Assembly: GCA_017467845.1 (NCBI GenBank)
Contig: JAFUKH010000017.1
Location: 1-64,000 of the forward strand
DNA from: Lachnospiraceae bacterium
Lineage (GTDB): Bacteria > Bacillota > Clostridia > Lachnospirales > Lachnospiraceae
Length of the DNA stretch: 64,000 nt
Direction of reading: 5' to 3'
Shown here in pieces: positions 44,797 to 53,986 of this stretch (position 1 is the stretch's first letter; each line of letters opens with the position of its first letter). Made by a program: the position numbers and the translations under genes. The notes under the pieces are model-generated. The model was not told the origin of the DNA. It worked only from the letters and a program-made list of their open reading frames with translations, and searched no databases.

Positions 44797-44875
44797 TTTT
44801 TGTGTTTGAAACATGAAAATCTCTTCAAAACTGTGTTTAAGTAAGAGTTTTAGATATGAAAGGACGGTGCATAAG

Positions 44876-47248
44876 TTGAGTACTGAATTGCAAATTAAAC
44901 TTCTTTCAGATGAAAAGTACATAGCAGCAGGAACGGATTTTGAGAGACATATTTATGATCTGGACGCGCAGATTGATATGCTTTCTAGTCATGCAGATAA
45001 ATTGGATTATCTGGTGGCAATAGCATCTGGATTGCTTTGCGGTATGATGGATATTCTGCTGGTGGGTGAATTTGACTTAGCCAGAGGTCGTGATATTGCC
45101 GATGCGAAAGTAAATGAGTTTGTTCAGAAGACAGCAGAGAAACTAGGTTGCAAGGATAGAGATATTAAATCATCAGTGGCATTCTTAGAAAAGATGTTTC
45201 CAATACCAAGTGATGGTAATACACCTGATTTTGGTGGTGGATTGCAGCATCATTTGAGAGACTTTGCACATCATCCAACTATGGTAGGGCTAATGTTCTC
45301 TTTGCTTACTCAGTTTGCTGAGAAGTCCTATGGCACGGATACAATGGGAAACTTCTTGATTGTACCGGTTCCGGAGAAGAGCAGGATATTTATCGGAGAA
45401 GATGTTCCGGATAAGATTGTGAAAGGTACAATAGTATGGTTCTTCCATTTGATTAGTGACATTGCAGGTTCAAGTAGCACTGCCGGATTAGGTGGGGGAA
45501 CGGGTATTCCCGGGCCAATCTTGTCAATGGCAAAAGAATTAGCGACTTTACCGTTATTTAAGGATATGCAGGTGCAGGGAGAATCTGTTTCTGTGGTGCT
45601 TTCTAAATTGTTTAATGGTACTTTGTTTGCCAAAAAGGATAGCAATGGAAAGATCATCAAAGAGACAGTGGTTAAGTTTGATTTCCGTGGGGAATTGGGG
45701 GCATTGGCAGAGTTGGGACGCCAGGCATTACCGGTACTTGCCAATGAATGTATTGTCAGAGTATTCTTCTTTCTTAGAAGATTTGCAATGCAAATAAAAC
45801 AGCATAAGATCGAACATCTTTCGGATTTGAGTAAATTAAATTGGAATGGAATTAAGCCAATCAATAATCCGACATTGACGAGAATGCTTACAATTGCAAC
45901 AGGAGTATTTACAGCAGTCGACATTACGGAAGCTGTGGTTACTCAAAAGTATTGGGTATCTGTAAACTATGTAGGTGTAGGAAGATTTGCAGTGGCAGTA
46001 GGAGCGGAGACCGTTAATTTCCTTAAAATACGTGATGTTCAAAAAATTAAGGATATGTATGAGGAAATCGGAAGAAATACTCATACGGCTACGGATAGTA
46101 GAATCTATGAGAGGATTGGCGATGGTATGAATTACGAAAAGCTTGGACTGACATTAGAACAGACTGAGATTTTATATAATTTGGAATATCTAAAGACAGT
46201 AAATGATGTTCATGCGACGAATATTCCGATTGGAAAAGAAAAGGTTAAGTCTTTGAAATGGGAATGGATTCATGAGTGGAAGTCCTACATGGAAAGTGGT
46301 TTCGAAGGATTTACACAGGTTCCCGGAGCGAAGCTGCATTGGTATAGCAAAGAGGAGCTGATAAAGCGTGTTGAAGCGAATGAACCGTATGGAACATGGC
46401 TTAGATTAGTACTGTTGGAAACCATGCTTTTTGAACCATATTATGCTTTGAGCACAGAAAAAAATGAGGATGGAAAGGATGTTCCGAGTAAGAAATATGA
46501 TAGCCTTCACTCTCCTGCAAGTGGCTACAAGGAAGCTACAGGAGATGCATTCTTAGAAACTTTCTTTACCGGTGATTACTATACATCAGGATATATCAAG
46601 CGTTTGAGAAAATGCCACAGTAAGGTATTGAGAGAACTGAATGAAGTTCTAAAGACGGCTCTGACAAGTTTAGCGGTGAGTGCAGGTATCGCAATTGCAG
46701 CGATTATTACAGCAGGTGCCTTCGCACCGGCGATAGCAGTTGCATTGGTTGGATCTAATTTTGCAGGATTGAGTGGAGCTGCGTTGACAAGTGCTTGCCT
46801 GGCATATCTTGGTGGTGGAGCGATAGCTGCAGGAGGTCTTGGCATGGCAGGTGGTACAATGGCAATTATTGGTGGAGGAGCTGTTTTAGGATTGGGTGTA
46901 GGAGCCGGAGTTGGCGGCGTGGTCGGTGCAGCAGGAATGATGGGTAAAAAGGGGACTATCCTTCAATCGGCAAAGCTTCTGGTATCAGTAAGAGAGATAT
47001 TCTTAAATGATGAGCATGATCTCGAATATTCGGATACGATCTTTGAGCAGTATGTGAATAATATTGCAGAGATTGAAAAAGGGATTGTAGAATTGAGATT
47101 AAAGTCAGATATTGCCAGTAAGGAAGAAAAGAAGCAACTGATACTGGAAATTAAGAATGCAGAGGATTCTGTAAATGCAATGAAGATTGCAATGAAGAGT
47201 ATGAATAAGTATAAGAGTGCATTTGCGATTGGAATGGATGTGCAGTAG
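44876..47248 (+). CDS. Large protein of unknown function with Gly-rich hydrophobic region
   Basis: 790 residues from a TTG start 10 bases after GAAAGGAC; an ATG at 44813 has no ribosome site. There is no signal peptide. The N-terminal two thirds are mixed alpha (EFDLARGRDIADAKVNEF, FHLISDIAGSSSTAG, GGGTGIPGPILSMAKELA). From about 600 to 690 comes a Gly/Ala-rich hydrophobic block (LGGGAIAAGGLGMAGG, GLGVGAGVGGVVGAAG) able to enter or line a membrane. A charged coiled-coil tail ends the protein. Such Gly-rich blocks occur in several conflict-type proteins, but I know no function for this family. It forms its own unit inside the island. Confidence 0.8.
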   Translation: MSTELQIKLLSDEKYIAAGTDFERHIYDLDAQIDMLSSHADKLDYLVAIASGLLCGMMDILLVGEFDLARGRDIADAKVNEFVQKTAEKLGCKDRDIKSSVAFLEKMFPIPSDGNTPDFGGGLQHHLRDFAHHPTMVGLMFSLLTQFAEKSYGTDTMGNFLIVPVPEKSRIFIGEDVPDKIVKGTIVWFFHLISDIAGSSSTAGLGGGTGIPGPILSMAKELATLPLFKDMQVQGESVSVVLSKLFNGTLFAKKDSNGKIIKETVVKFDFRGELGALAELGRQALPVLANECIVRVFFFLRRFAMQIKQHKIEHLSDLSKLNWNGIKPINNPTLTRMLTIATGVFTAVDITEAVVTQKYWVSVNYVGVGRFAVAVGAETVNFLKIRDVQKIKDMYEEIGRNTHTATDSRIYERIGDGMNYEKLGLTLEQTEILYNLEYLKTVNDVHATNIPIGKEKVKSLKWEWIHEWKSYMESGFEGFTQVPGAKLHWYSKEELIKRVEANEPYGTWLRLVLLETMLFEPYYALSTEKNEDGKDVPSKKYDSLHSPASGYKEATGDAFLETFFTGDYYTSGYIKRLRKCHSKVLRELNEVLKTALTSLAVSAGIAIAAIITAGAFAPAIAVALVGSNFAGLSGAALTSACLAYLGGGAIAAGGLGMAGGTMAIIGGGAVLGLGVGAGVGGVVGAAGMMGKKGTILQSAKLLVSVREIFLNDEHDLEYSDTIFEQYVNNIAEIEKGIVELRLKSDIASKEEKKQLILEIKNAEDSVNAMKIAMKSMNKYKSAFAIGMDVQ

Positions 47249-50081: not shown

Positions 50082-50867
50082 ATGGAATTAACCAATGAAG
50101 AGAAACGGGAAAAAGTAAGGGATTTTAGGCCCATAGATGATGTATTCTTTGAGGTTCTTGCGCAGAATCCGAAGGTATGCGAGGAGATGCTGCGGACGCT
50201 TCTGGAGGATGAAAGTCTTGAGGTAATAAGCGTCATTACGCAGTCGGATGAGCGGAATATATATGGACGTTCGGTGAGGCTGGATGCGCTGTGTATTCTT
50301 GGGAATGGCTCGAAGGTGAATGTGGAGGTGCAGCGTTCGGACAATGACAACCATCTGAAACGCGCTAGGTTTAATGCATCGAGCATTACGGTAAGGGACT
50401 CTAATCCGGGAACGAGATTTGAAGAGGTAATAGAGCTTTACATTGTATATATTTCGGAGTTTGATTTCTTAAAAGGGGACAAGACGATATATCATGTGGA
50501 GAAGGTCCTGCGTGAGACGGGAGAGGTGATTGACGATGGCCTGCATGAGATTTTTGTGAATACGGTCATTGATGATGGTACGGATATAGCGGAGCTTATG
50601 GCGTGCTTTATGAAGAAGGAAGTGAAGAGTCCGAAGTTCCCTGTTTTATCAGCGGAAGTTCAGAGATTGAAGGAGACCGAGGGAGGTGTACGAGTCGTGT
50701 GTGAGGTGATGCAGAGGTATGAGAAGCTTGCTGTAGAAGAGGCAATGCAGAAAGACCATGTCGAGAAGATTAAGAAGCTGCTTCAAAAAGGCTGTTCCAA
50801 GGAATTTATTCTTGACCTGGATTACACCGAGGATGAGTACACAGAAGCGGTGAGGGAATTACGTTAG
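50082..50867 (+). CDS. PD-(D/E)XK nuclease family transposase (Rpn-like)
   Basis: 261 residues. The N terminus (RDFRPIDDVFFEVLAQNPKVCEEMLRTLL) and nuclease core (VRLDALCILGNGSKVNVEVQR, giving D...E-V-Q) match the PD-(D/E)XK family transposases common in gut Firmicutes. The C terminus has a helical tail ending in LDYTEDEYTEAVREL. Such proteins may promote recombination or act as defence nucleases. It has its own promoter and a stand-alone position. Confidence 0.88.
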   Translation: MELTNEEKREKVRDFRPIDDVFFEVLAQNPKVCEEMLRTLLEDESLEVISVITQSDERNIYGRSVRLDALCILGNGSKVNVEVQRSDNDNHLKRARFNASSITVRDSNPGTRFEEVIELYIVYISEFDFLKGDKTIYHVEKVLRETGEVIDDGLHEIFVNTVIDDGTDIAELMACFMKKEVKSPKFPVLSAEVQRLKETEGGVRVVCEVMQRYEKLAVEEAMQKDHVEKIKKLLQKGCSKEFILDLDYTEDEYTEAVRELR

Positions 50868-50882
50868 CAGGAGTGCGATAAT

Positions 50883-50931
50883 AAATTATACCACAAGTAT
50901 AATTTACAAACTAAACTTTCCATGCTATGAT
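50883..50931 (+). promoter_or_regulatory. rtcB operon promoter with operator-like palindrome
   Basis: AAATTATAC (50883-50891) and GTATAATTT (50897-50905) form a perfect 9-bp inverted repeat. Its right arm overlaps the -35 TTTACA (50903-50908). After 17 bases comes the extended -10 TGC-TATGAT (TATGAT 50926-50931). The XRE protein of the same operon is a candidate binder. Confidence 0.7.
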
Positions 50932-50937
50932 GACGAT

Positions 50938-51210
50938 GTAATTAAGAGAAAAGCGGAACGACATAGGTTCCGGAAAGGAAAAGACATGACTACAATGAAT
51001 CGTATATATTGCTTCTATAGTGAAAGTTACAGGTCAGCACATCTCGATAAATACGAGCTGGGCTTATGTGTCATGCACTCATCTTTAGATAAGCATAAAC
51101 GAGGAAATTGTGTTTTGGATACCCGGTTGCGGTGATAGGACTGCAGGGATGGAGATAAACATGTTTTTAGCGTACCGCTTACCTTGATGATGGGTAGGCG
51201 GTATTTTTTT
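50938..51210 (+). promoter_or_regulatory. rtcB leader with attenuator-type terminator
   Basis: From the likely start near 50938 the leader runs about 270 nt and ends in an intrinsic terminator: TACCGCTTACC (51173-51183) pairs with GGTAGGCGGTA (51193-51203), then seven T. It lies 30 bases before rtcB, so it must be read through for rtcB expression. GGTTGCGGT (51125-51133) can pair with the terminator's left arm (ACCGC and ACC) as an antiterminator. Other stems: CGGAAC/GTTCCG (50954-50972) and GCTTAT/ATAAGC (51062-51094). I recognise no known riboswitch or T-box. Confidence 0.7.
50986..51135 (+). CDS. 49-codon leader ORF upstream of rtcB
   Basis: ATG at 50986 after GGAAAGGAAAAGAC, TGA at 51133-51135. 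It encodes 49 residues beginning MTTMNRIYCFYSESYRS, with Tyr at codons 8, 11, 15 and 23. There is no signal peptide. The stop codon lies in the putative antiterminator strand, so a ribosome finishing the ORF would cover it, while one stalled on the Tyr codons would not. This is the layout of a leader peptide in transcription attenuation. Alternatively the region is purely a structured RNA. Confidence 0.5.
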   Translation: MTTMNRIYCFYSESYRSAHLDKYELGLCVMHSSLDKHKRGNCVLDTRLR

Positions 51211-51239
51211 GTGAAGTTTAGGAGGAAGGGAGAAACACT

Positions 51240-52445
51240 ATGTTAGAGATCAAGGGAAAAGTAAATACAGCCATTTGCTATGCCACCGTAATCGAGGATG
51301 AGGCAATCGAGCAGATTCGCAGGATGTGCGACTATGAATTTACTGCCGGTTCCAAGGTTCGAATTATGCCGGACGTTCATGCGGGTAAAGGCTGCACCAT
51401 AGGAACAACGATGACAGTGATTGACAAGGCAGTTCCGAACGTAGTCGGCGTGGATATCGGATGCGGTATGTATACAGTGAACCTTGGCAATATCGAGATA
51501 GATTTTGAGAAGCTGGATGAGGCCTGTCATTTTGTTCCTTCGGGAATGAATGTGTGGCAGGGAAGACAGGAGCATTTTGACCTGCAGCAGCTCCGTTGTT
51601 TCAGGGAATTGAAGGACAGCAAGAGATTAGAGCGAAGCTTAGGTACTCTGGGCGGCGGAAATCATTTCATCGAGGTAGATAAGGCTACGGACGGCACCAA
51701 GTATCTTGTGATTCATACCGGAAGCCGTAACCTGGGCAAACAGGTGGCTGAGATATACCAGAGACTTGCGGTGGATTTGAATCGCGGCATGGAGGATTAC
51801 TTTGCGCAGAGAGATGAGATTATTCGCACCTATAAGGAGCAGGGAAGACGAGGTGAAATCCAGGCGGCATTAAAGGAAATCGCGTGGAAGAAGGCAAACG
51901 GACCTGCGTCAATGCCGGAGGATCTTTGCTATCTTTACGGCAAGTATTTTGAGGACTACTTGGCAGACGTGGAAATCTGCCAGCAGTTTGCGAAGAGAAA
52001 TCGTGAGCTGATTGCAGAAGTAATCCTTGGCAGGTGTGGCTTAACAGCGGTAGACACATTTCATACCATTCATAATTATATTGATACAGGTGAAATGATA
52101 TTGCGAAAGGGCGCAATTGCGGCCCATAAAGGAGAGAAAGTGCTGATTCCGATTAATATGAGAGATGGAAGCGTGCTTGCTGTTGGAAAGGGTAACCCGG
52201 AGTGGAACTATTCTGCGCCCCATGGTGCCGGAAGAGTGATGTCCAGAGCCGGAGCACGTCAGCGACTGTCGCTGGAGGAGTACAAGAAGGAAATGGAGGG
52301 GATTTATACCACCTCCGTCAATGAAGATACCTTGGATGAGGCTCCTATGGCATACAAGTCTCTGAGTGACATCATCGATGTCATTGGGGAGACCGTAGAA
52401 GTGATTGAAGTATTGAAACCTATTTATAACTTTAAGGCAAACTGA
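51240..52445 (+). CDS. rtcB: RNA-splicing ligase RtcB
   Basis: 401 residues. Joins RNA 2',3'-cyclic phosphate or 3'-phosphate ends to 5'-OH ends using GTP and Mn2+. Metal and guanylate residues are visible: VVGVDIGCGMYT, LGTLGGGNHFIEV, VIHTGSRNLGKQV, FHTIHNYID and the guanylylated-histidine motif APHGAGRVMSR. In bacteria RtcB repairs tRNAs and rRNA cut by toxins or stress. It is followed by an XRE gene and a tRNA-Tyr. AGGAGG before ATG. No RtcA, RtcR or archease gene is next to it. Confidence 0.96.
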   Translation: MLEIKGKVNTAICYATVIEDEAIEQIRRMCDYEFTAGSKVRIMPDVHAGKGCTIGTTMTVIDKAVPNVVGVDIGCGMYTVNLGNIEIDFEKLDEACHFVPSGMNVWQGRQEHFDLQQLRCFRELKDSKRLERSLGTLGGGNHFIEVDKATDGTKYLVIHTGSRNLGKQVAEIYQRLAVDLNRGMEDYFAQRDEIIRTYKEQGRRGEIQAALKEIAWKKANGPASMPEDLCYLYGKYFEDYLADVEICQQFAKRNRELIAEVILGRCGLTAVDTFHTIHNYIDTGEMILRKGAIAAHKGEKVLIPINMRDGSVLAVGKGNPEWNYSAPHGAGRVMSRAGARQRLSLEEYKKEMEGIYTTSVNEDTLDEAPMAYKSLSDIIDVIGETVEVIEVLKPIYNFKAN

Positions 52446-52785: not shown

Positions 52786-52870
52786 GGGTAGGTAAACCGT
52801 AATTGGTAGCGGGCCAGACTGTAAATCTGGTGCCTCAGGGCTTCTGTTGGTTCAAGTCCAATCCTGCCCA
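52786..52870 (+). tRNA. tRNA-Tyr (GTA), atypical D arm
   Basis: 85 nt. Acceptor GGGTAGG/CCTGCCC; anticodon stem CCAGA/TCTGG with loop CTGTAAA (anticodon GTA at 52821-52823); a long variable arm (GCC/GGC stem) as in class II tRNA-Tyr; T arm GTTGG-TTCAAGT-CCAAT. The normal D-stem positions (AACC against GGG) pair poorly; a CCG/CGG stem shifted two bases inward is the best D stem. CCA is not encoded. No promoter of its own is seen, so it is probably processed from the rtcB-XRE transcript. Confidence 0.85.
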
Positions 52871-52954
52871 CTTTTGTTTGCAGTGTCCGTGTTAACTTTA
52901 AAATTATTTTATTGATAAATTTAATGAAATTAGATAGAATAATTGTGTAAAATA

Positions 52955-52981
52955 ATTTGTGTCACCACTGGTGACACAAAT
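52955..52981. repeat. 27-bp perfect palindrome, also present inside the next gene
   Basis: ATTTGTGTCACCA, centre C, and the exact mirror image. The inner 24 bases recur identically at 53275-53298 within the DUF1016 coding region. It sits 18 bases before the likely GTG start, where a repressor site or mRNA hairpin would act. Confidence 0.8.
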
Positions 52982-52999
52982 GGAAAGTCGGGATATGGT

Positions 53000-53986
53000 G
53001 TGAACACTGAAATTTCAATTGCTACAAATTTAATAAAAATTATAAATCAATCAAGACAGAATGCATTAAGAAAAGTTAACGAAGAGCTTATTCATATGTA
53101 TTGGCAGATTGGCGAGTTTCTAAGTAAGGAATCAGAAAAGGCTTCCTTTGGAGACTCATATATTGATACGATTGCAAATGAAATACAAACTGCATTTCCA
53201 GGAATAAAGGGATTTAATAGAAGAGGTCTTTATAGGATGAAGCAGTTCTATGAGACGTATAGGGATAATGAAAATGTGTCACCACTGGTGACACAAATTA
53301 GCTGGACAAATCATTTACTTATTTTGTCAGGATGTAAATCTGATACAGAACGAGAGTTTTATATGCGTTTATGTATAAAAGAAAATTATTCAAAACGGCA
53401 ACTTGAACGTCAGTTGGATAGTGGATATTATGAGCGATATATGTTGTCAAAGAAAAGGATTTTGCCTGAAACGGTGAAAAAGTTGGGAGAAAACCCTTTT
53501 CTAGACTCATATGTTATGGAGTTCTTGGATTTGCCGAATGAGTTTCGTGAAAATGATTTGCGAAAAGCTTTAATAAGAAATATGAAAGATTTTATACTAG
53601 AACTTGGAAAGGATTTTACTTATATTGACGAGGAGTATAAAGTTCAAGTAGGAGGCGACGATTTTAGAATTGATTTATTATTTTATCATCGTGGCTTGCA
53701 ATGTCTAGTGGCAATCGAATTAAAAATTGGAAAGTTTAAGCCGGAATATATTTCTAAATTGGATTTTTATTTGGAAACACTTGACAGACAGGTAAAAAGA
53801 GAGAATGAGAATCCGAGTGTTGGGTTGCTGTTATGTGCGTCGAAAAATGATGAAGTAGTGGAATATTCAATGAGCAGAACGATGTCTCCTTTAATGGTGG
53901 CCGAATATCAGTTGCAGTTGCCAGATAAAAGTATATTGCAGAGGAAACTGCAAGAACTAATCAATATACCTCAGATAGGAGATTGA
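53000..53986 (+). CDS. DUF1016/YhcG family PD-(D/E)XK nuclease-like protein
   Basis: 328 residues from a GTG at 53000; the ribosome site is weak and the start uncertain. The N-terminal DUF1016 domain (VNEELIHMYWQIGEFLS, then FNRRGLYRMKQFYETY) is followed by the nuclease-like C-terminal domain (DDFRIDLLFYHRGLQCLVAIELKIGKF, with D...E-L-K). These proteins are often found in mobile or defence loci and with restriction genes. AT-rich composition and no operon partners suggest transfer. Confidence 0.88.
   Translation: MNTEISIATNLIKIINQSRQNALRKVNEELIHMYWQIGEFLSKESEKASFGDSYIDTIANEIQTAFPGIKGFNRRGLYRMKQFYETYRDNENVSPLVTQISWTNHLLILSGCKSDTEREFYMRLCIKENYSKRQLERQLDSGYYERYMLSKKRILPETVKKLGENPFLDSYVMEFLDLPNEFRENDLRKALIRNMKDFILELGKDFTYIDEEYKVQVGGDDFRIDLLFYHRGLQCLVAIELKIGKFKPEYISKLDFYLETLDRQVKRENENPSVGLLLCASKNDEVVEYSMSRTMSPLMVAEYQLQLPDKSILQRKLQELINIPQIGD

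Follow-up and report, generated by a model that had tools for sequence, protein, structure and literature searches.

Predicted leader-peptide attenuators ahead of rtcB and tRNA genes, with leader codons that follow the tRNA array of the operon

In the Lachnospiraceae DNA analysed here (GenBank assembly GCA_017467845.1, contig JAFUKH010000017.1, positions 1 to 64,000; hereafter the window, meaning the whole stretch of 64,000 nucleotides, nt), the RNA ligase gene rtcB is preceded by a short open reading frame (ORF) and an intrinsic terminator, an arrangement which raises the question of what a translated leader would report to such a gene. A reading made from the letters of the locus alone (the sequence-only reading) had proposed an attenuator tuned to tRNA-Tyr, and the parts it listed are indeed found in place: the promoter, the ribosome site and the 49-codon ORF with Tyr at codons 8, 11, 15 and 23, the terminator with seven T (a 13-pair stem at 51172-51204) before the rtcB start at 51240, and, as the operon's own tRNA, tRNA-Tyr at 52786-52871, the only tRNA in the window. 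What is supported in that proposal is a leader-peptide attenuator before rtcB with codons tied to the tRNA genes of the operon; the specificity for Tyr and the antiterminator it put forward are not. Our preferred interpretation, to which we give a probability of roughly 0.8, is that the leader acts as a ribosome-mediated transcription attenuator whose peptide is a codon catalogue of the tRNAs that the operon can replace or repair.

The proposed switch involves three segments (Table 1): R1, early in the ORF, R2, late in the ORF, and T, which comprises the left arm and loop of the terminator. With all listed tRNAs intact and charged, the ribosome would cross R2 close behind the RNA polymerase, and R2, masked by the ribosome or re-paired with R1, would allow the terminator to form. 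If any listed tRNA became scarce, most plausibly through cleavage by an anticodon nuclease, the ribosome would stall before R2, and the freed R2 would capture newly made T, blocking the terminator; the resulting read-through would produce RtcB, which re-joins cut RNA, together with spare tRNAs. In the window, the four Tyr codons, all located ahead of R2, would report on tRNA-Tyr, the sole tRNA detected in the array. The leader also holds Glu, Ser, His, Leu and Lys codons, so that stalls at these before R2 should work too. The combination of a ligase, a 2'-phosphotransferase and spare tRNAs in the operons described below would fit tRNA cleavage better than starvation. Of the features which define the attenuator class, a leader ORF led by a Shine-Dalgarno (SD) sequence and followed by a terminator, exclusive pairings, and regulatory codons related to the operon appear to be present, as judged by comparison between loci.

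This comparison builds on an RtcB protein scan of bacterial and archaeal genomes, from which the best 80 of 360 loci were taken; excluding four with short upstream sequence (L033, L045, L065 and L069) left 76 loci plus the window. A similar terminator is found in 60 of these 76 loci, and in 54 of them a homologous SD-led ORF of 37-54 codons accompanies the terminator before rtcB. Terminators were located by pattern, except in L014, L017, L023, L028 and L030, where strings typed after inspection were used; L085, L091, L097 and L119 were omitted from some tests as duplicates or truncated. L006 was left out, as its ORF is deleted and the one called there is spurious: in this locus (Acetivibrio ethanolgignens) the ORF and R1/R2 have seemingly been lost, with the 5' part and the terminator kept and an RtcB that is 95% identical. 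The ORF and its Tyr codons are kept in related leaders, the opposite of the lack of conservation that the sequence-only reading had named as its refutation. A sequence-only nucleotide model built from 55 leaders, window included, matched 23 of 392 genomes in an order sample (E<=2e-5), every one in the window's own family, 53 of 397 in a family sample (E<=1e-4; matches in G435 and G730 were not used, lying at contig ends) and 5 of 391 in a class sample (E<=1e-5), one of which (G1050) comes from another family. Record titles of the rtcB loci are mostly Lachnospiraceae, including Blautia glucerasea and Oribacterium strains, and the carriers appear to be mostly gut-dwelling bacteria. The leader has no match in Rfam at the gathering threshold or at E up to 1, and its fold in the window is 3.3 standard deviations better than that of shuffled sequences. 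These comparisons indicate that the leader of the window is beyond chance, being one member of a leader family.

The alternative pairings were evaluated with a swap test, in which the duplex energy of cognate partners is compared with that of partners exchanged between loci. For R2:T the cognate mean is −14.35 kcal/mol vs −10.62 kcal/mol for swapped partners (permutation standard deviation 0.32, p=5e-5, 55 leaders); the difference persists in sets of 35 and 25 less related leaders, and control windows 30, 50 and 70 columns upstream of R2 show no co-variation with T. When partners of R2 were scanned over 35 leaders, cognate pairs surpassed swapped ones only at columns 42-54 of alignment A1, which correspond to R1, with z values of −4.0, −6.0 and −4.7 for windows starting at these early ORF codons. 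R1:R2 and R2:T are, on this co-variation, predicted to be mutually exclusive alternative pairings, and in the window they are near-equal (−12.2 and −12.3 kcal/mol); R1 takes in two whole Tyr codons, 8 and 11, and only the first base of a third, codon 15. RNAalifold, run on alignment A2 (50 of the 55 leaders), returned only the terminator and a 2-pair helix and recovered neither R1:R2 nor R2:T, probably because R2 has indels, and for this reason the swap tests were used instead.

The antiterminator of the sequence-only reading was a different segment, GGTTGCGGT at 51125-51133, which is able to pair with the left arm of the terminator in the window (−13.2 kcal/mol). Over 55 leaders, pairing of the stop-codon region with the left arm averages −5.95 kcal/mol for cognate and −6.08 kcal/mol for swapped partners (p=0.74), and R2:T is the stabler pairing in 53 of the 55; with shorter segments this is also so in the window (−10.3 for GGTTGCGGT:T vs −11.3 kcal/mol for R2:T). 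The assignment was rejected: GGTTGCGGT shows no co-variation with the terminator and forms the 5' arm of a hairpin local to the stop codon; the segment that does co-vary, R2 (51074-51103), lies some 20-50 nt upstream of it. A stop-codon hairpin of at least 4 pairs is predicted in 50 of 55 leaders, a count made without a shuffled control. The transcript's 5' end was a further candidate, having complementarity to the terminator arm and being preferred at equilibrium in the window, but it was rejected as it shows no co-variation (p=0.20 and 0.23).

The second line of evidence concerns the codons. tRNA arrays were annotated with ARAGORN, which may miss or misname degenerate tRNAs, on 60 of the 80 rtcB loci, the fetched stretches ending within about 5 kb; codons were related to anticodons by a table built from the usual wobble rules, with Met(CAT) unscored, and the null consisted of random re-pairing of leaders and tRNA arrays between loci. 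In the discovery set of 32 non-redundant loci with at least 2 tRNAs, 124 of 128 tRNA species have a cognate codon before R2, against an expectation of 107.0 (standard deviation 3.24, p=5e-5), and the same bases read in the +1, +2 and reverse-strand frames give no signal (p 0.19-0.82). Since the hypothesis of a codon catalogue arose from this set, new leaders were gathered by the nucleotide model alone, and 14 of 60 fetched regions, with at least 1 tRNA and with leader peptides that share <80% identity with one another and with those of the discovery set, served as a hold-out. In these, 35 of 36 species are matched vs 28.6 expected (standard deviation 2.1, p=0.0017; other frames p 0.12-0.95). 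For L166, one of these loci, the frame had been misassigned; the remaining 13 loci give a match of 34 of 35 vs 27.9 expected (standard deviation 2.0, p=0.0012). The combined 54 non-redundant loci give 199 of 207 tRNA species, summed over loci, matched before R2 vs 166.1 expected (standard deviation 4.6, p=5e-5), with no match in the other frames (p 0.22-0.99). Further controls, all with L166 included, point in the same direction: when leaders are permuted only inside clusters of similar sequence, p is <=0.0006 for the reading frame and 0.32-0.98 for the two others, codons past R2 of the same peptides do not match the tRNAs (p=0.19-0.20), and the match is intact after dropping the four codons that adjoin R2 and is insensitive to the array definition for gap limits from 150 to 1000 nt, the limit in use having been raised from 500 to 700 nt after L051 was seen.

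Uncommon amino acids carry most of this match, as far as the 41 loci with at least 2 tRNAs indicate: a Trp codon is present in 4/4 leaders with the tRNA vs 8/37 without, a His codon in 10/11 vs 11/30, and a Cys codon in 5/5 vs 13/36 (uncorrected Fisher p 0.005, 0.002 and 0.011, respectively). For example, the array of L157 comprises Phe, Ile(tat), Ser, Lys, Cys and two Gln tRNAs, and its leader has five Gln, two Cys and two Ile codons before R2. The exclusive sensing of Tyr was abandoned on the same grounds, as Tyr codons occur in 27/27 leaders with a tRNA-Tyr gene and in 13/14 without one, and, being present in nearly every leader, Tyr alone gives no evidence. In fact, within the first 29 codons after the start of 55 leaders, Leu and Glu are found in 55/55, Ser in 54, Phe in 53 and each of Tyr, Lys and Asp in 52; relative to rtcB codons Tyr is enriched 1.4-fold, Phe 3.1-fold and Ser 2.5-fold. 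Each leader holds 12 to 18 distinct amino acids in these 29 codons. The comparison between loci indicates that the sensed codon set varies with the tRNA array of the operon.

The switch was also simulated by folding only the RNA ahead of the ribosome. Under the criterion that R2 pairs with >0.4 of the T arm (48 to 55 of 55 leaders testable per position), a P-site located 28 to 4 codons before R2 frees R2 for T in 82-96% of leaders, the window capturing 0.49-0.76 of the left arm, and with the ribosome on or past R2 the R2:T pairing forms in none.

Several results weigh against this interpretation. The last value follows from the simulation itself, which treats RNA behind the ribosome as unavailable; when the truncated leader of the window was instead folded at equilibrium with only the ribosome footprint masked, R2:T reached <=0.12 of the arm at any codon, and in the unmasked fold the left arm of the terminator pairs with the 5' end of the transcript, so that kinetics and coupling are inferred. 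In the window alone, GGTTGCGGT:T is about as stable as R2:T (−13.2 vs −12.3 kcal/mol), and R2:T is weaker than the family mean (−11.3 vs −14.45 kcal/mol). In the R2:T test an early control window gave borderline values (p=0.010, 0.038 and 0.059 at three redundancy levels), and several windows between R1 and R2 pair with R2 slightly worse than swapped ones. The stop codon of many leaders, as in the window, is located far enough beyond R2 that a ribosome positioned there would not itself cover R2. Regarding the codons, the common ones (Tyr, Glu, Ser AGY, Leu CTN, Phe) are uninformative one by one, Lys(CTT) is matched in just 1/3, and 8 of 207 tRNA species are unmatched, such as tRNA-His in L005, whose leader has no His codon. 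Also, 40 of the 103 distinct leaders surveyed below have no detected array tRNA.

These observations have to be weighed together with other explanations of the leader. The loci are related and their arrays and leaders have been inherited together, and the codon match could then have arisen by chance from common descent and the codon usage of the genomes; however, the controls taken out of frame, on the reverse strand and past R2 have this descent in common and are not significant, whereas the permutation within clusters is, and the hold-out replicated the match, which renders such an accident extremely unlikely. A comparably slight probability attaches to arrest by the nascent peptide, in which a conserved sequence would stall the ribosome in response to a ligand, as in the ErmC or TnaC leaders. 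Although a peptide pattern is recognisable across the family, most positions are variable, the conserved stretches include R1 and R2, whose conservation is explainable by RNA pairing, and arrest would not be expected to produce a correspondence between codons and tRNAs. Ordinary control by amino-acid starvation, with the codons reporting amino-acid supply, would agree with an architecture that is the one of the trp, his and ilv attenuators, but we regard it as highly improbable: the genes concerned encode a ligase, a 2'-phosphotransferase and tRNAs, none of them for biosynthesis or transport, and an extra tRNA would presumably be of no help when the amino acid is lacking.

A general sensor of translation stress deserves closer consideration, as any slow ribosome, be it due to antibiotics, amino-acid shortage or ribosome damage, would then induce the operon irrespective of codon identity. 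The diversity of leader residues (12 to 18 amino acids in 29 codons) and the 40 of 103 leaders with no detected array tRNA are what such a sensor would accommodate, and in Anabaena TrcR represses a tRNA array together with rtcB, a repression that translation stress lifts (PMC10272220). Nevertheless, under such a sensor the codons would not be expected to follow the tRNA genes from one locus to the next, in the reading frame and solely ahead of R2, and we consider it unlikely. A leader that lists tRNAs would also answer general stalls, and the two are in this sense compatible.

In the trp, his and ilv attenuators, regulatory codons sit in a leader ORF, and the RNA has alternative pairings (1:2, 2:3 and 3:4) and an intrinsic terminator; the present family has the same architecture of leader ORF, alternative pairings and terminator; unlike them, it would control an RNA ligase and tRNA genes, and would sense many tRNAs in a set that changes with the array. 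In the T-box riboswitches of Firmicutes read-through also responds to the state of a tRNA, but the leader here has no Rfam match and its translated ORF carries the signal. The mechanism class is already known; for the array-matched codon catalogue on RNA-repair genes, no description of rtcB or tRNA target genes with such a codon list was found in the open-licence literature, most subscription journals being outside its scope.

The closest functional parallels, as far as the sections of their reports available to us go, are Salmonella RtcR and Anabaena TrcR. RtcR, an activator with CARF and sigma-54 domains, governs the rsr-yrlBA-rtcBA RNA-repair operon and binds tRNA halves, and damaged tRNA switches on rtcB in Salmonella (PMC7790460), as is proposed here; the string 'attenuat' has 0 occurrences in the text seen of that report (PMC7790460). 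Unlike in Salmonella, the proposed sensor is a ribosome reading an attenuator, and the leader of the window has no divergent rtcR as its immediate upstream neighbour. TrcR is a ribbon-helix-helix repressor that acts at the promoter of the trn array, rtcB and other genes and is relieved by translation stress, and in a trcR mutant GNAT genes are derepressed along with rtcB and the array (PMC10272220). This trio of tRNA array, rtcB and GNAT is the same as in our family, from which the Anabaena array differs in being one long 26-gene operon on a megaplasmid; 'attenuation' and 'leader' have 0 occurrences in the portion of the text at hand (PMC10272220). The 8-nt core of the TrcR site, ATACTACA (PMC10272220), resembles the promoter dyad of the window (ATACYACA). 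A report on bacterial tRNA array units describes dense tRNA arrays, one mycobacterial group of which occurs mostly with an XRE regulator, and RtcB goes unnamed (0 occurrences) in its text as accessible to us (PMC5966550). An XRE-type helix-turn-helix (HTH) gene also follows most of our leaders.

The resemblance to the Anabaena site extends over the dyad at 50887-50908, which reads ATACYACAAGTATAA in the window and ATACTACACTTGTATTAC at the TrcR site (as given in the part of PMC10272220 available). The pattern TATACYACANGTATAATNNACA of this dyad has a single exact match across the genome of the window, a loosely defined form of it lies 5' of 78 of 115 leader rows (duplicates counted), and the HTH protein of the operon would be the obvious candidate to bind it.

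The genes that follow the leader were surveyed where at least 2.5 kb of downstream sequence was available, for 103 leaders that differ from one another within the first 100 nt. rtcB follows 76 of them, an HTH gene 91 and detected tRNA genes 63, all three being absent after only 3 (L167, L115 and L185). In L167 the leader is followed by a KptA/Tpt1 RNA 2'-phosphotransferase (PF01885, 156.8 bits), whose ORF starts about 250 nt past the leader ATG; L115, a second leader copy in the window's own genome (contig C50), and L185 precede a pair of GNAT acetyltransferases and represent a second leader type. An HTH gene without rtcB follows 22 leaders, with tRNA genes present in 17 of these, and in three of the 22 (L086, L094 and L095) rtcB lies directly upstream of the leader. 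We think it probable, with somewhat less confidence than for the attenuator itself, that these leaders form a modular family in Lachnospiraceae-type bacteria, in which the leader would be an editable list of threatened tRNAs, its codons being gained and lost with spare tRNA genes, and one module would drive several tRNA-rescue effectors (the RtcB ligase, spare tRNA arrays, KptA and GNAT pairs), amounting to an inducible defence against anticodon nucleases with a target list readable from sequence. If so, the textbook logic of amino-acid attenuation would report the integrity of individual tRNAs, with a repair enzyme together with replacement tRNAs as the response; small bacterial tRNA arrays would gain a function, bacterial RtcB would be tied to tRNA repair in an operon without adjacent RtcR, and one could read from sequence which tRNAs a bacterium expects to lose, which would be the first such reading known to us.

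Table 1. Features of the leader and operon in the window, with the basis of each assignment
Feature	Coordinates	Strand	Basis or comment
Candidate operator dyad TATACCACAAGTATAATTTACA	50887..50908	+	Abuts the -35 box; possibly bound by the operon's own HTH protein
Leader promoter-like site, TTTACA-17-TATGAT, TG before the -10	50903..50931	+	10/12 consensus match only
5' hairpin directly 5' of the leader ribosome site	50954..50972	+	Predicted fold −9.0 kcal/mol
Leader ribosome-binding site GGAAAGGA	50972..50979	+	Sequence; GGAAAGG occurs in the A1 and A2 consensus sequences
Leader ORF, 49 codons	50986..51135	+	Sensor zone is the codons ahead of R2
R1, early ORF segment, partner of R2	50999..51028	+	R1:R2 −12.2 kcal/mol in the window; co-variation with R2
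R2, late ORF segment, antiterminator 5' strand	51074..51103	+	R2:T −12.3 kcal/mol in the window; swap test
Local hairpin around the leader stop codon	51118..51150	+	−11.3 kcal/mol; contains GGTTGCGGT
T, terminator left arm and loop, alternative R2 partner	51170..51191	+	Swap test; folding of the window
Intrinsic terminator and T run	51172..51210	+	Stem 51172-51204, 13 pairs, seven T; −20.6 kcal/mol; compensatory changes in A2
rtcB, RNA ligase	51240..52445	+	PF01139, 192.6 bits
Small XRE-type HTH protein, 82 amino acids	52502..52750	+	PF01381, 30.8 bits
Operon tRNA-Tyr(gta)	52786..52871	+	Sole tRNA detected in the window

In the window, a consensus scan found no promoter-like site on the + strand between the terminator and rtcB. 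Among the 30 tRNA matches in the genome of the window (86% complete), the operon's tRNA-Tyr(gta) has the lowest score (34.5 bits), and a second tRNA-Tyr, on contig C30, differs from it in sequence. In the close relative L005 (RtcB 96% identical) the array reads Glu, Glu, His, Tyr, in comparison with which the array of the window is reduced to tRNA-Tyr. In L157 (genome G528), 3 of the 7 array tRNAs score 63-71 bits among the matches listed.

Operon tRNA genes of other loci present further peculiarities. Remnant-like tRNA pieces are seen by eye between terminator and rtcB in L056, L062 and L074, and TGTCCAATGTA recurs, also by eye, after the last upstream tRNA in many rtcB loci. In L036, L060, L070, L237 and others, operon tRNA genes contain, in the T arm or at other positions, short palindromic inserts CGCTTCGGTCG...CACCGGAC, which may be a mobile element or a tRNA intron; in G416 and G1050 the tight insert pattern occurs once per genome, in the operon tRNA-Lys, with looser copies in or beside other tRNA genes. 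In L118 a DUF2828 protein (116 bits) is encoded on the reverse strand about 6 kb past the leader, downstream of a leader-HTH unit and on its strand.

Around the operon, an adjacent divergent rtcR (CARF and sigma-54 activator) was not found in the window, the next gene upstream of the leader being a same-strand Rpn-type PD-(D/E)XK nuclease at 50082-50867. With a BnzB-like protein at 44813-47248 (150.6 bits), this nuclease may mark a defence-rich neighbourhood. Past the operon tRNA lies a DUF1016/YhcG nuclease at 52943-53986 (PADLOC PDC-S02, 422 bits), and an inverted repeat TGTGTCACCAGTGGTGACACA is found near its start (52955-52981) and again within the gene (53275-53295).

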